49,937 bases of DNA. Source: an uncultured bacterium (GTDB taxonomy: Bacteria > Calescibacteriota > Calescibacteriia > Calescibacteriales > Calescibacteriaceae). A model generated the notes under the pieces. It saw only the letters and a list, made by a program, of their open reading frames with translations, did no database searches and was not told the origin of the DNA. Positions 1,003-9,450 of this stretch are shown here, one piece after another. The stretch is taken from NCBI GenBank assembly GCA_938036315.1, contig CALHPK010000025.1:1-49937 (forward strand). The letters run 5' to 3'. Position numbers and translations under genes: made by a program. Every line of letters begins with the position of its first letter. Positions within the stretch are counted from its first letter, which is position 1.

Positions 1003-4000
1003 CTACTTTATGAGTGCTCCGCAAGAATTACAAACTGAATAAGAATTCTTCCTCCGCATAGCACCACCACAGTCTGGACACTCAGAGGGGAGAATATCTT
1101 GTATAGATATAGAGTCTTTAGACTCAGCTTCTGATTCAGTAATCAAAACTCCTTCTCGAGAGCCTTCCCTGTAGACTGTTATGCCTTTACACCCTTCTTC
1201 CCAGGCAAGTTCATATATCTTACCTATCTCCTCCACAGTAGTATTTTTGGGTAAATTAACAGTAGAGGATATTGAAGAATCTATGTGCTTTTGGATTGTA
1301 CCCTGAATCTTAACTCTCATCTTAGGCTCTATTTGGTGTGCTGTTACAAAAAAGTCAGGAAGATCTCGCTCATCCTTCCCTCCTGTTATCTCTAAATATA
1401 AAGCAACAAGAGGATGAAATACTTTAAAAGTCTCTTTGGATAACGACTCAGATCTCCTTATGTAAGAGAGTGCAAAAATTGGCTCAATCCCCCCCGTGGT
1501 TCCAGCAAGAATTGCACCTGAGCCAACAGGAGGTATAGTCAGAAGACATGAATTTCTTAACCCCTGAGCAACTATTTTTTCTTTCACATTATCTTTGACC
1601 CCCTTTAGGAACGGCTGATCAAGATGTTTATCTACCCTGAAAGCAGGAAATGAACCTTTTTCTCTGGCTATCTCTGAACTTTCATCATAGGCAATATTCT
1701 TTATGAATTCAAAGAGCTTATCCATCATATAGATTGCATCAGATGAATCATATTTCAGCATAAGTTCAACAAGCATATCACCAAGGCCGGTAGCACCAAG
1801 CCCAACTCTTCTTGAATACAAAGAAGCTTCAGACTGCATCTTCAAAGGATGACGGGGAGCAGAATAATCAAGGACATTATCCAAAAACCTTATAGCTATC
1901 CTTATAATTCTTTCAAGCTCAATCAGATCTGGATGGGCCATTCCGTATCTCTCTGCATACTCAATAGCTCCCTTGGTCCCCTTTTTATCGAATTCTTTCC
2001 AGAACCTTTCAACATCGATTTCTTTCTTAAATGGATTTTTGACAAGACGAGCCAGATTTATGTTCCCAAGATTGCAACAGCCATAATCCTCAAGCATCTG
2101 CTCAGAGCAGGGATTACATCCTTTGACAGCCATCTTCTCATCATACTCCGTAGGAGAAAATCTTTTAGCGGTATCCCAGAAGATCACTCCTGGTTCAGCC
2201 GAAGACCAGGCACGACGGATAAGTCTCTGCCACAGTTCCCTTGCCCTTATTTTCATCTCAATTCTTCGCACCTTCTCTGATTCGAACCACAAGGTAAAAA
2301 CTCCATCGGATTTAACAGCTTTCATTAGTTTGTCAGATACTTTCACAGATATATTGGCATACCTTACATTAATTCTCAGGGGATCATCCTTTACATCTAT
2401 AAAATCAAATACATCCGGATGTCTATCTTCTATAGTTATCATCAATGCTCCACGACGCCCGCTATTTGAAACATAAAAACCCTCAGCACAGAATTTATGT
2501 TCATCCTCTACCTCTATATCATAAGCTTCTTCATCTCCCGAAAACTCTATTTTTTCTATCTTTTGGAAAAAAAGGAGATCTTGTTCAATCTTGACTCCTC
2601 CATCAGGCCAGATATTGCCAAGGTACCAAGAATCTACCATCAAGTGAGAGGGAACATCTAAATAACCACTTATATTGGTTCTGCCAATAGCATCTTTACG
2701 AGTCTTCAAGATATACTCCCGAATCCTCAGAGAAAATCTCCCGATTATATTCGTAAACCGCTCAATAAACTCATCATCAACTACAGAGACCGAAAAGATT
2801 TTGTTATAATTTTGAGAAATTCCTGATGCACGGAAAATAGAGGCTACTCCTAATCTCAAAAGATTCCTATGCAGATCTTTTCCCAAGCGTTCTGACACTG
2901 CATTGAAACAATATTTGCTATCTAAGATATTTCCAACAGCATCAAACAATCCCGCAATAAATGAGCAAATATTCTCATCTGGTGAATTTTCTATACCGCT
3001 CAATATCCTATCATCCAAAGCAAAATTAGATTTCAAGAAAGAGCAAATAACCAAGGATTGAATTTCTAACCTGCATATATTCCCATCGATTTTCTCAACA
3101 GGAACAATTCCAAAAAGTTCTTTAGTAACCTTCAACAAATTATTTTTAATTTTGATGTGATCTTTTCTATTTAAGGAGAAGATAAAGTTAATTTTCCCAT
3201 CACTTTCTAAAGAGCCGGCCCCTGAGAAAAATCCAAGCCAGTATGCTAATCTGGTATCTAAAATTTTAGGTTGCTTTACTGAACATCTCCCATATTCTAA
3301 TCTACCAGTTTCATTTGTACTTGTAGCTTTAAGCTTCGGGTAGGTTTTTACATCTGTGCCACAACCTACTATCATAGTTACTTTATCACCTTCTTTGAAC
3401 TCTCCCAAGGGCTTGAGCTTAAAGTTTTCGTCCAGAAATTTATGATCTTTTGAAGCTGTAATAGTGTAACCGTAATTCGTTGTAACTTTGTAAAGCTTGG
3501 TTTTTCTCTTTTCAAAAACATAGGAAACTTTCTTCCATCCTTTGTTAGTCCATACCTTATCTCCGACTTTTATATCTTCAATATTTTTCCAGCCTTCAGA
3601 TGTAAGAACTTGAGTTCCTTTCGCAAGACACTGACCGATAGTTCCTGTAACTTTTGAAAATAGATCCATAAAAGATACTGCACCGGTTGAATAGATAGCG
3701 GAATTATTTACAGGACTTCCTTTAGGACGGAGGATAGATATATCAGTATTGTGTATGACAGATAGTCCCCCAACACCGGCGAAGTAATTATTATTTTTCT
3801 CAACTGTGAGGTCGCAAAATTCTTCATCTACATTTACTGCTTTTTGAATATTTTCAACTTGAACTAAACTCAGACAAAGCTCTCTATATTTTAAAACAGT
3901 GTAATATAAATCGATTGATTTATTTGTATTTTCGGAAATCAAAGCATCTATGATCTTCTCAAATTCTTGCTTACCGATATAATCTGATGATAGAATTTTT

Positions 4001-5367
4001 TCTATATCTTTGTTGTTAGTTAAATTGCTCAGGATGAATTTTTTGATGAATTTCGGTACATAAACATAGTTTTGCTCAGCATTATTTAGTATATCTTGTA
4101 TGTTCAAGGCTTTTTGATTATGCTTCATATACTTTGATACTTTTAGAATGAATTCAGATGATTTTATTCTTATTCTGTAGGAGCTATTTGCGTGATGGTT
4201 TTGATCTGGAGCTTCCAGGATATCTGCATATCCGCCTAATATGGATATCAGAAGTTTTAGATCGTACGCCAGGGATTTATCTGATATGTAGATTTCGATA
4301 CCTGAATTTGTAACTTTCCCAGCGGAGTCTACAACACCAGCGATGAAAGCAATCTGTGTTTCGTAAGATGAGGAAAAGATCCACTCAGGCAATTTTACAG
4401 CGCCCAGCTCTAAAGTAGCATTACTTACTATATCCACATAATTTGCATCTTCCCTATACGAATATGAATGATTTATGTTTTTCCATTGATGTACATCATA
4501 AGGTACAGCCGTTTGGATTCCCATCCCAGTAGTCTTGTAGGCATACCGGGATTGTAAAGATGAGTAATTGATTTTTTTCTTTGTCTTAGCTTCGATAGAA
4601 TGCATATCAGATATATAAGCTCCCGCAATCCACCCTAACTCAGGATTGTGATACATTACATTGATGGGGAAATTATGAATTTTTGGAGTTCTGAGCATCA
4701 TATCTCCGATTCCCACTTCCTCAGCAGGAACATACACAAATTTTCCATCTCTAAACACCAGGGTAGGATGCCATCTTGATGTAACAAGTTCTGTACCATC
4801 TTTCAACTTCACTTTAACATTATCTTCCTTTTTCACAATAACTCTATGGGTTTTGATTACCTTTCTAAACTCGATCTCGTGAAGTTTGGGATCAAAGGAT
4901 AAAACCTCTTCTCCTTCTAGAACTTTTTCGATGTTTTTCAATCCACTTCTGGTTACTACGTAGTGGTCTTTTGCAACACAACCTACCCCACCACCGAAAG
5001 AATAAGTTCTTGCCATTTCTTTTGCGCATTCAAATATTCCTTCTATTGAATCTTCTTTTATAGGTATGTAATAGCAATTCAGTAGGGTTGACCTTCTTGG
5101 GTTTCCAGCTCCGAACATAATTCTTCCACCAGGAACAAACTTAAAATTCTCAAGTATTGAGTAGAACTTCGCTTCCCAATCTTGCCTTTTCTCTGGAAGC
5201 TCAACAGAAGCTATCTCACGTGCAACCCTTTTCCACATCTCAGGGGGGATTTTCTCAACAACATTTCCATCATAATCACGAAGAGCGTATTTTTCATAAA
5301 AAACCCTTGCCCTAAGTTCGTCGCCGTTAAACCACCTTAATGTCTCTTCTGGGATCTTCATTTCCAT
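1003..5367 (-). CDS. nrdJ: Class II (B12-dependent) ribonucleotide reductase with two inteins
   Basis: Adenosylcobalamin-dependent ribonucleotide reductase, which makes deoxyribonucleotides without oxygen. The 1454-residue precursor contains two in-frame inteins (residues 130-540 and 580-968). Removing them leaves a 654-residue enzyme. Extein landmarks are the redox cysteine C98 (LNCYY), the glycine-rich FGGGVG at the first insertion site, the radical-site motif NPCSE (1085-1089) and a C-terminal zinc-type tail with CxxC pairs 1430/1433 and 1446/1449. Long NrdJ proteins usually carry a TSCPD domain before such a tail. It is missing here, and a separate TSCPD protein is encoded at 35.2-35.9 kb. 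The ATG at 5367 has a good RBS (AGGTG, 5376-5380, spacing 8). No B12 riboswitch-like element was recognised upstream. Confidence 0.95.
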   Translation of the reverse strand: MEMKIPEETLRWFNGDELRARVFYEKYALRDYDGNVVEKIPPEMWKRVAREIASVELPEKRQDWEAKFYSILENFKFVPGGRIMFGAGNPRRSTLLNCYYIPIKEDSIEGIFECAKEMARTYSFGGGVGCVAKDHYVVTRSGLKNIEKVLEGEEVLSFDPKLHEIEFRKVIKTHRVIVKKEDNVKVKLKDGTELVTSRWHPTLVFRDGKFVYVPAEEVGIGDMMLRTPKIHNFPINVMYHNPELGWIAGAYISDMHSIEAKTKKKINYSSLQSRYAYKTTGMGIQTAVPYDVHQWKNINHSYSYREDANYVDIVSNATLELGAVKLPEWIFSSSYETQIAFIAGVVDSAGKVTNSGIEIYISDKSLAYDLKLLISILGGYADILEAPDQNHHANSSYRIRIKSSEFILKVSKYMKHNQKALNIQDILNNAEQNYVYVPKFIKKFILSNLTNNKDIEKILSSDYIGKQEFEKIIDALISENTNKSIDLYYTVLKYRELCLSLVQVENIQKAVNVDEEFCDLTVEKNNNYFAGVGGLSVIHNTDISILRPKGSPVNNSAIYSTGAVSFMDLFSKVTGTIGQCLAKGTQVLTSEGWKNIEDIKVGDKVWTNKGWKKVSYVFEKRKTKLYKVTTNYGYTITASKDHKFLDENFKLKPLGEFKEGDKVTMIVGCGTDVKTYPKLKATSTNETGRLEYGRCSVKQPKILDTRLAYWLGFFSGAGSLESDGKINFIFSLNRKDHIKIKNNLLKVTKELFGIVPVEKIDGNICRLEIQSLVICSFLKSNFALDDRILSGIENSPDENICSFIAGLFDAVGNILDSKYCFNAVSERLGKDLHRNLLRLGVASIFRASGISQNYNKIFSVSVVDDEFIERFTNIIGRFSLRIREYILKTRKDAIGRTNISGYLDVPSHLMVDSWYLGNIWPDGGVKIEQDLLFFQKIEKIEFSGDEEAYDIEVEDEHKFCAEGFYVSNSGRRGALMITIEDRHPDVFDFIDVKDDPLRINVRYANISVKVSDKLMKAVKSDGVFTLWFESEKVRRIEMKIRARELWQRLIRRAWSSAEPGVIFWDTAKRFSPTEYDEKMAVKGCNPCSEQMLEDYGCCNLGNINLARLVKNPFKKEIDVERFWKEFDKKGTKGAIEYAERYGMAHPDLIELERIIRIAIRFLDNVLDYSAPRHPLKMQSEASLYSRRVGLGATGLGDMLVELMLKYDSSDAIYMMDKLFEFIKNIAYDESSEIAREKGSFPAFRVDKHLDQPFLKGVKDNVKEKIVAQGLRNSCLLTIPPVGSGAILAGTTGGIEPIFALSYIRRSESLSKETFKVFHPLVALYLEITGGKDERDLPDFFVTAHQIEPKMRVKIQGTIQKHIDSSISSTVNLPKNTTVEEIGKIYELAWEEGCKGITVYREGSREGVLITESEAESKDSISIQDILPSECPDCGGAMRRKNSYSVCNSCGALIK
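2464..3630 (-). mobile_element. Intein 2 of NrdJ (residues 580-968)
   Basis: A 389-residue in-frame insertion starts at Cys580 after TGTIGQ and ends YVSN (Asn968). The C-extein resumes at Ser969 (SGRRGALM). Block A (CLAKGTQVLTSEG), SxxH (S639/H642) and a block F with His957 are seen. The penultimate residue is Ser967 rather than the usual His. LAGLIDADG motif 1, WLGFFSGAG (710-718), has Ser715 instead of the catalytic Asp. Motif 2, IAGLFDAVG (804-812), keeps Asp809. Splicing is presumably functional because NrdJ needs it; the endonuclease is probably dead. Confidence 0.9.
3748..4980 (-). mobile_element. Intein 1 of NrdJ (residues 130-540)
   Basis: A 411-residue in-frame insertion starts at Cys130, right after FGGGVG, and ends VIHN (Asn540). 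The +1 residue of the C-extein is Thr541 (TDISILRPKG). Block A (CVAKDHYVVTRSG), a block B-like SxxH (S197/H200) and a block F/G segment ending in His-Asn are visible. Two degenerate LAGLIDADG motifs occur: WIAGAYISD (246-254), with Ile252 in place of the first catalytic Asp, and FIAGVVDSAG (341-350), which keeps Asp347. Splicing looks intact. The homing nuclease is probably inactive. Confidence 0.92.
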
Positions 5368-8535: not shown

Positions 8536-9450
8536 ATGGTAAGATTTTTGATATACTCGGCTTTATCTTCTGTGCTGATATGGGGTTCATATGTAAAAAG
8601 TCCGTGTTCTACGGTTGAAAAAGAAATTATCAGAAGATATATAGGAAGCTCTGAAGGGCTGACATACCCTCAGAGTAAAAATGGAAATCAAAGTGAGGTA
8701 GGGACTCAAGTCATAAAAGAAGCTAGTAGAAGTGATGAAGGAGAATTTGAAGTGAACATAAAAGGTGTAGTTTTAGATAAATTAAGTCAAACCCCAGTTG
8801 TTATTTTAACAACCAGAGATGAGGTGAGATTTATTCCCATATGGGTGGGCTTTGGAGAAGCTCAAGCTATAGATATGGAAATAAGAGGGATAACTCCACC
8901 CCGCCCTATGACGCACGATCTTCTCAAGAACATCATCACGATCTTGGGAGCGAAAATTGAAAAAGTCATAATAACCGATATAAAGAACAACACCTATTAC
9001 GCTGAGATAGTGATAAATGATGGGAATAAAACATTTCAGATTGATTCAAGACCTTCGGACGCAATCGCTTTAGCTCTTAGGACAAAAGCACCTATATTTA
9101 TCTCTAAAAAGATATTAGAAGTATCGGTAAAAGTCCCAGAACCACAGAAAGAAGAACTTATATTAGAAAAAGTAGGACTTCTTATACAACAAATAACGCC
9201 AGAACTTGAAGAGTTCTTCAGAACAAAAGGAGTTGTGATTTCTGATGTAAAACCTAAATCCCCAGCCGATGGGAAATTGCAAAGAGGAGATATAATAATA
9301 GCTATCAATGGCAAAAATGTCCAGAATCAAGAAGGAATGAAAATAGTCATTGAAGAAATAAGAAAATCAAAAGAATTAAACATTTCTATATTAAGGCATG
9401 GTAAAATACACCAAGTAAAGATTAAAAGCAAACAGGACAATAAAGATTAA
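8536..9450 (+). CDS. Bifunctional nuclease (DUF151) domain fused to a PDZ domain, exported
   Basis: The 304-residue protein has three parts. Residues 1-25 are hydrophobic and resemble a signal peptide or anchor. Residues about 72-200 form a BFN/DUF151 domain with the typical IPIWVGFGEAQAI and RPSDAIALALR segments. Residues about 215-300 form a PDZ domain (SPADGKLQRGDIIIAINGK). BFN proteins are reported to have nuclease activity in a few organisms, but the in vivo role is unclear. The PDZ domain suggests binding of peptide C-termini, as in envelope proteases. It precedes an archaemetzincin and an NfeD protease, so a proteolysis or envelope-quality role is inferred. A TAATAT hexamer lies 6 nt before the ATG, which has no RBS. 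Confidence 0.85.
   Translation: MVRFLIYSALSSVLIWGSYVKSPCSTVEKEIIRRYIGSSEGLTYPQSKNGNQSEVGTQVIKEASRSDEGEFEVNIKGVVLDKLSQTPVVILTTRDEVRFIPIWVGFGEAQAIDMEIRGITPPRPMTHDLLKNIITILGAKIEKVIITDIKNNTYYAEIVINDGNKTFQIDSRPSDAIALALRTKAPIFISKKILEVSVKVPEPQKEELILEKVGLLIQQITPELEEFFRTKGVVISDVKPKSPADGKLQRGDIIIAINGKNVQNQEGMKIVIEEIRKSKELNISILRHGKIHQVKIKSKQDNKD

Follow-up and report, generated by a model that had tools for sequence, protein, structure and literature searches.

A ribonucleotide reductase gene that is interrupted twice raises the question of how a working enzyme can come from it, and of whether the elements that interrupt it can still move. Such a gene lies in the window, by which we mean the whole 49,937-nucleotide stretch analyzed here (contig CALHPK010000025.1, from an uncultured bacterium of the Calescibacteriaceae). 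Our preferred reading, which we hold at a probability of roughly 0.9, is that a single reductase precursor contains two independent class 1 inteins that excise themselves and whose endonucleases have lost catalytic acids, with the predicted consequence that they can no longer home.

The sequence-only reading had placed an NrdJ frame with two inteins at positions 1003-5367, and this is borne out, on the minus strand: one frame of 1454 residues runs from an ATG at 5367 to 1003 without a single internal stop (Table 1). As had been claimed, Cys is the first and Asn the last residue of each insert, and removal of their 411 and 389 residues does leave a 654-residue enzyme, whose computed mass of 74.2 kDa lies close to the predicted figure of about 73 kDa. 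The score against the NrdJ_Z model TIGR02504 (curated cut-off, 400 bits) increases from 473.1 bits for the unspliced to 518.6 bits for the spliced protein, and the C-extein carries the NPCxE active-site motif. Judged by its match to TIGR02504, the host protein is a class II ribonucleotide reductase, NrdJ.

Table 1. Positions in the window of the nrdJ precursor, its exteins and inteins, and the motifs discussed in the text (a slash marks an insertion point here and below)
Feature	Positions	Strand	Description
nrdJ precursor ORF	1003..5367	-	1454 aa
N-extein	4981..5367	-	aa 1-129, C-terminal ...TYSFGGGVG
Intein 1	3748..4980	-	aa 130-540, 411 aa, CVAKDHYV...VIHN, +1 Thr
Middle extein	3631..3747	-	aa 541-579, 39 aa, TDISILRPKG...TGTIGQ
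Intein 2	2464..3630	-	aa 580-968, 389 aa, CLAKGTQV...YVSN, +1 Ser, penultimate Ser
C-extein	1003..2463	-	aa 969-1454 and stop, SGRRGALM...; NPCSEQ active-site motif, C-terminal four-Cys motif
Intein 1 LAGLIDADG motif 1 (block C)	4603..4629	-	IAGAYISDM, acid retained
Intein 1 LAGLIDADG motif 2 (block E)	4318..4344	-	IAGVVDSAG, acid lost
Intein 2 LAGLIDADG motif 1 (block C)	3214..3240	-	WLGFFSGAG, acid lost
Intein 2 LAGLIDADG motif 2 (block E)	2932..2958	-	IAGLFDAVG, acid lost
Intein 1 block B	4765..4782	-	TSRWHP
Intein 1 blocks F/G	3748..3816	-	CDLTVEKNNNYFAGVGGLSVIHN
Intein 2 block B	3442..3456	-	ASKDH
Intein 2 blocks F/G	2464..2523	-	YDIEVEDEHKFCAEGFYVSN

The inserts are not chance interruptions, because Pfam recognizes intein and endonuclease domains inside them (Intein_splicing, 4.6e-24; LAGLIDADG_3, 7e-13; Hom_end, 3.7e-5), both segments matching Hint/intein domains, and because nrdJ is uninterrupted and colinear in four genomes from the same family. 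These intein-free homologs, a search for which had been proposed, encode 652-677 residues that align with the window protein residue by residue through both junctions; the NrdJ parts themselves are conserved, the two long extein segments being 73-82% identical to the relatives. Junction 1 reads SFGGGVG/TDISILRPKG in the window and (F or Y)GGGVG/IDITILRPKG in the relatives, and junction 2 reads TGTIGQ/SGRRGALM and TGTIGQ/(S or A)GRRGALM, respectively. The description of both sites as highly conserved spots holds for the surrounding stretches, whose mean column entropy is within the lowest 7% of the protein, but not for the +1 residues themselves: the Thr of site 1 is replaced by Ile in all four close relatives, and the Ser of site 2 by Ala in three of the four. 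Given the colinear empty sites, the inserts were either gained in the lineage of the window or precisely lost in the others. The idea that Thr+1 at site 1 was created by the arrival of the intein is weakened by the occurrence of GGGVGTD in two intein-free genes, L010 and L034, in the latter across a frameshift; QSGRRGA, for its part, is found in eight viral NrdJ frames. The nearest named nrdJ genes come from MAGs labeled Armatimonadetes SKYB36 (57%) and WOR-3 (51%), and in locus L082 apt lies directly upstream of nrdJ, as it does in the window. In the WOR-3 locus L034, nrdJ is broken into two frames exactly at the site 1 GGG (around 3360-3385); the contig has low coverage and the break lies within a run rich in G, an error of sequencing being the probable cause and a scar a possible one.

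Both inteins retain Cys1, the block B His, the block F Asp, the terminal Asn, and a hydroxyl-bearing +1 residue; in block F, intein 1 has Asn at a position where His is frequent, and intein 2 keeps the His. By these residues both inserts are class 1 inteins, and splicing can be predicted from them. We posit that Cys1 of each intein would attack the preceding peptide bond, that the N-extein would be handed to Thr+1 (intein 1) or Ser+1 (intein 2), and that the terminal Asn would cyclize, leaving the three extein pieces joined as one NrdJ. Splicing could nevertheless be slow or partial, because intein 2, which ends in SN/S where intein 1 ends in HN/T, is without the penultimate His, and because, at the third position ahead of the block B His, both inteins have Ser instead of Thr. 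Structure prediction without an alignment gave mean pLDDT values of 31.5 and 40.1 for the two inteins, too poor to use.

A LAGLIDADG active site requires one acid per motif, and two motifs, blocks C and E, are recognizable in each intein. When the catalytic acid is scored at position 8 of the motif in an alignment of 19 inteins, the block C acid is kept in 18, the sole exception being intein 2, and the block E acid in 15, with losses in both window inteins and two others. Identity of intein 1 to its homologs is 0.33 in the Hint part and 0.15-0.19 in the endonuclease part, whereas a reference pair of inteins from the same site (G041 and G690) is nearly even, at 0.29 and 0.28; for intein 2 the corresponding values are 0.24-0.33 and 0.19-0.23, a modest excess of divergence, several other reference pairs also being lower in the endonuclease than in the Hint part. 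The window inteins are short (intein 1 has 411 residues against 462-472 in site-1 reductase inteins, and intein 2 has 389 against 431-463 in gyrA inteins) and form the two longest terminal branches in the tree, 2.56 and 2.23 against a median of 0.51. Both homing endonucleases look dead, the failure to cleave DNA being predicted from these losses. A precedent is the PhoVMA intein, in which the splicing domain is kept and the endonuclease, having lost the active-site Asp of both block C and block E, is degenerated and does not cleave; the host gene there is VMA, and the inactivity was shown by experiment, while that of the window inteins is judged from sequence (PMC8966425). The simplest reading is that, as described for PhoVMA (PMC8966425), selection was relaxed on homing and continued on splicing: both inteins would once have been homing elements with LAGLIDADG endonucleases, would have lost catalytic acids since, and would thereby have lost the ability to home.

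As to where the inteins came from, intein 1 groups with the site-1 reductase inteins of two bacteria (G041 and G186) and a presumed archaeon (G690), with tree support of 100/99, sharing with them host gene, loop, and clade as well as a TSxWHP form of block B combined with the block F Asn; against a site-1 model built without it, intein 1 is the top non-member at 89.8 bits, the next scoring 66.8. The three site-1 inteins differ in having their catalytic acids and in being inserted at KSGGG/TGFSFSRLRP, two residues upstream of the intein 1 point, GGGVG/TDIS, in a gap-free alignment. The NrdJ subfamily of the window has Val in place of the Thr of the GGG/T site. It is possible, and we offer it tentatively, that intein 1 belongs to the GGG/T lineage and that its insertion point was displaced two codons further on, to a usable Thr; if so, an intein changed its place inside a single loop with reading frame and ability to splice both preserved. 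Another homolog is PI-PfuI, the RIR1 intein of Pyrococcus furiosus (PDB 1dq3), which aligns with residues 26-411 of intein 1 (E 2.7e-10) and shares the TSxWHP block B, the Asn for His in block F, and a two-residue-longer ...NYxAGxxGxxxVHN end. PI-PfuI, however, is an active endonuclease, in contrast to intein 1 with its lost block E acid, and its insertion point, which we take from the recognition sequence to be GGG/TGLN, differs from GGGVG/T.

Intein 2, at TIGQ/SGRRG, occupies the same NrdJ loop as inteins at QGG/TRRG (G170 and G737) and QGG/KRRG (G690); it is offset by one or two residues depending on gap placement, since the NrdJ subfamily of the window has one residue fewer there, and a small shift of a similar kind near QGG/TRRG may have occurred. 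The site-2 inteins keep the penultimate His, and intein 2 is not clearly grouped with them: it falls in no supported tree group, and several gyrA and site-3 inteins outscore it on the site-2 model, where it reaches 112 bits. Among the genomes compared, G690 carries three NrdJ inteins and G170 two. The presumed archaeal precursor in G690 (L136, minus strand, 2070 aa) has its inteins at aa 250-721, 765-1214, and about 1326-1732, at GGG/T, QGG/K, and NPC/C; after the terminal HN of the second comes a Lys, which is unable to serve as the usual +1 nucleophile, and the third ends in HQ. An NPC-site NrdJ intein in G015 (L070, minus strand, aa about 305-719) ends in Asp (FPVLD/C) and is without the block E acid.

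Several other explanations deserve weight beside this account. That a larger reductase simply has these inserts as normal domains, or that they are an artifact of assembly, is hardly credible: the inserts are known from one genome only, and the contig belongs to an incomplete, multi-contig assembly, but each insert has Hint blocks at both ends, the intein-free relatives join the same extein sequences directly, homologous inteins occupy the same NrdJ loops in other genomes, and the single open frame has host-like codon usage. The resemblance of intein codon usage to that of the host and neighboring genes also fits a long residence of the inteins, and it leaves a recent foreign origin, which we considered, unsupported. 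Alternatively, intein 1 could splice and intein 2 fail, a last step slowed by the missing penultimate His leading to precursor accumulation or to conditional splicing that limits reductase output. This too is unlikely, even though intein 2 has Ser at the penultimate position, where all but one of the 16 further aligned inteins ending in Asn have His, and reversion to His helps some natural inteins, while harming others (PMC4031507). About 5% of functional inteins have another penultimate residue (PMC4031507), so splicing of intein 2 is to be expected, if perhaps at a slower rate; its remaining splicing residues are intact, and loss of splicing would probably be lethal in a genome in which no other reductase was found.

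It is also distinctly improbable that either endonuclease, or the pair, remains able to cleave and home with unusual residues standing in for the missing acids. Each LAGLIDADG domain does still span several hundred residues and is recognized by Pfam, and intein 1 retains its block C acid; yet, with an acid needed in each motif, intein 2 has neither and intein 1 is short of one, the divergence of intein 1 is concentrated in its endonuclease part, and no close copies of either intein were found elsewhere.

Two self-excising inteins with decayed endonucleases would sit in a gene on which the cell appears to rely. A search of the 85%-complete genome turned up no second large reductase subunit, class III NrdD, or NrdB, which suggests that the cell depends on the splicing of both inteins, probably as an essential step, although at this completeness a further reductase may lie in the part not recovered. 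The inteins would persist because their loss requires an exact deletion in the apparently sole reductase of the cell. In the four intein-free relatives (G001-G004; loci L088-L091) we noted weak ribonucleotide reductase small-subunit-like proteins, which may be R2-like oxidases rather than NrdB; none were found in the genome of the window, nor was a 16S gene. Elsewhere in the window, the ORF at 8536-9450 resembles HtrA-type proteases in its C-terminal part (aa 212-303), the match being to their PDZ region.

The viral contigs searched contained no close relatives of the inteins, and phage and plasmid searches returned only distant intein matches, or none. Viral NrdJ loci do carry inserts at the NPC site (L192, L193, L195, L196, L198, and L199), and among them sites 1 and 2 are without inserts. 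The plus-strand NrdJ frame of a further viral contig (L179) contains a long insert, aa about 121-534, near residue 97 (NCYY motif), with weak similarity to intein 2.

Multiply invaded reductases are already known: the listings of several alleles, rir1-g, rir1-l, and rir1-m, include Thermus thermophilus HB8 and an uncultured Chloroflexi bacterium, whose rir1/nrdJ genes thus likewise have more than one intein (PMC4071816). The window gene holds a clear, if fairly ordinary, example of a familiar type of genetic parasite. What the present analysis adds to the sequence-only reading are the degenerate endonucleases, the sites offset from the common reductase intein sites, and the lack of the penultimate His in intein 2; of these, the decay of the endonucleases and the offset location add useful detail to a known category rather than creating a new one. 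The locus offers a clear view of a late stage of the homing cycle, in which two inteins in an apparently essential gene have kept their splicing parts while their endonucleases decay, and for which close intein-free relatives are available for testing. Taken with the Ile at +1 in the close intein-free relatives, the offset of two residues shown by intein 1 offers a modest starting point for understanding how inteins come to shift their position and to be entrenched.
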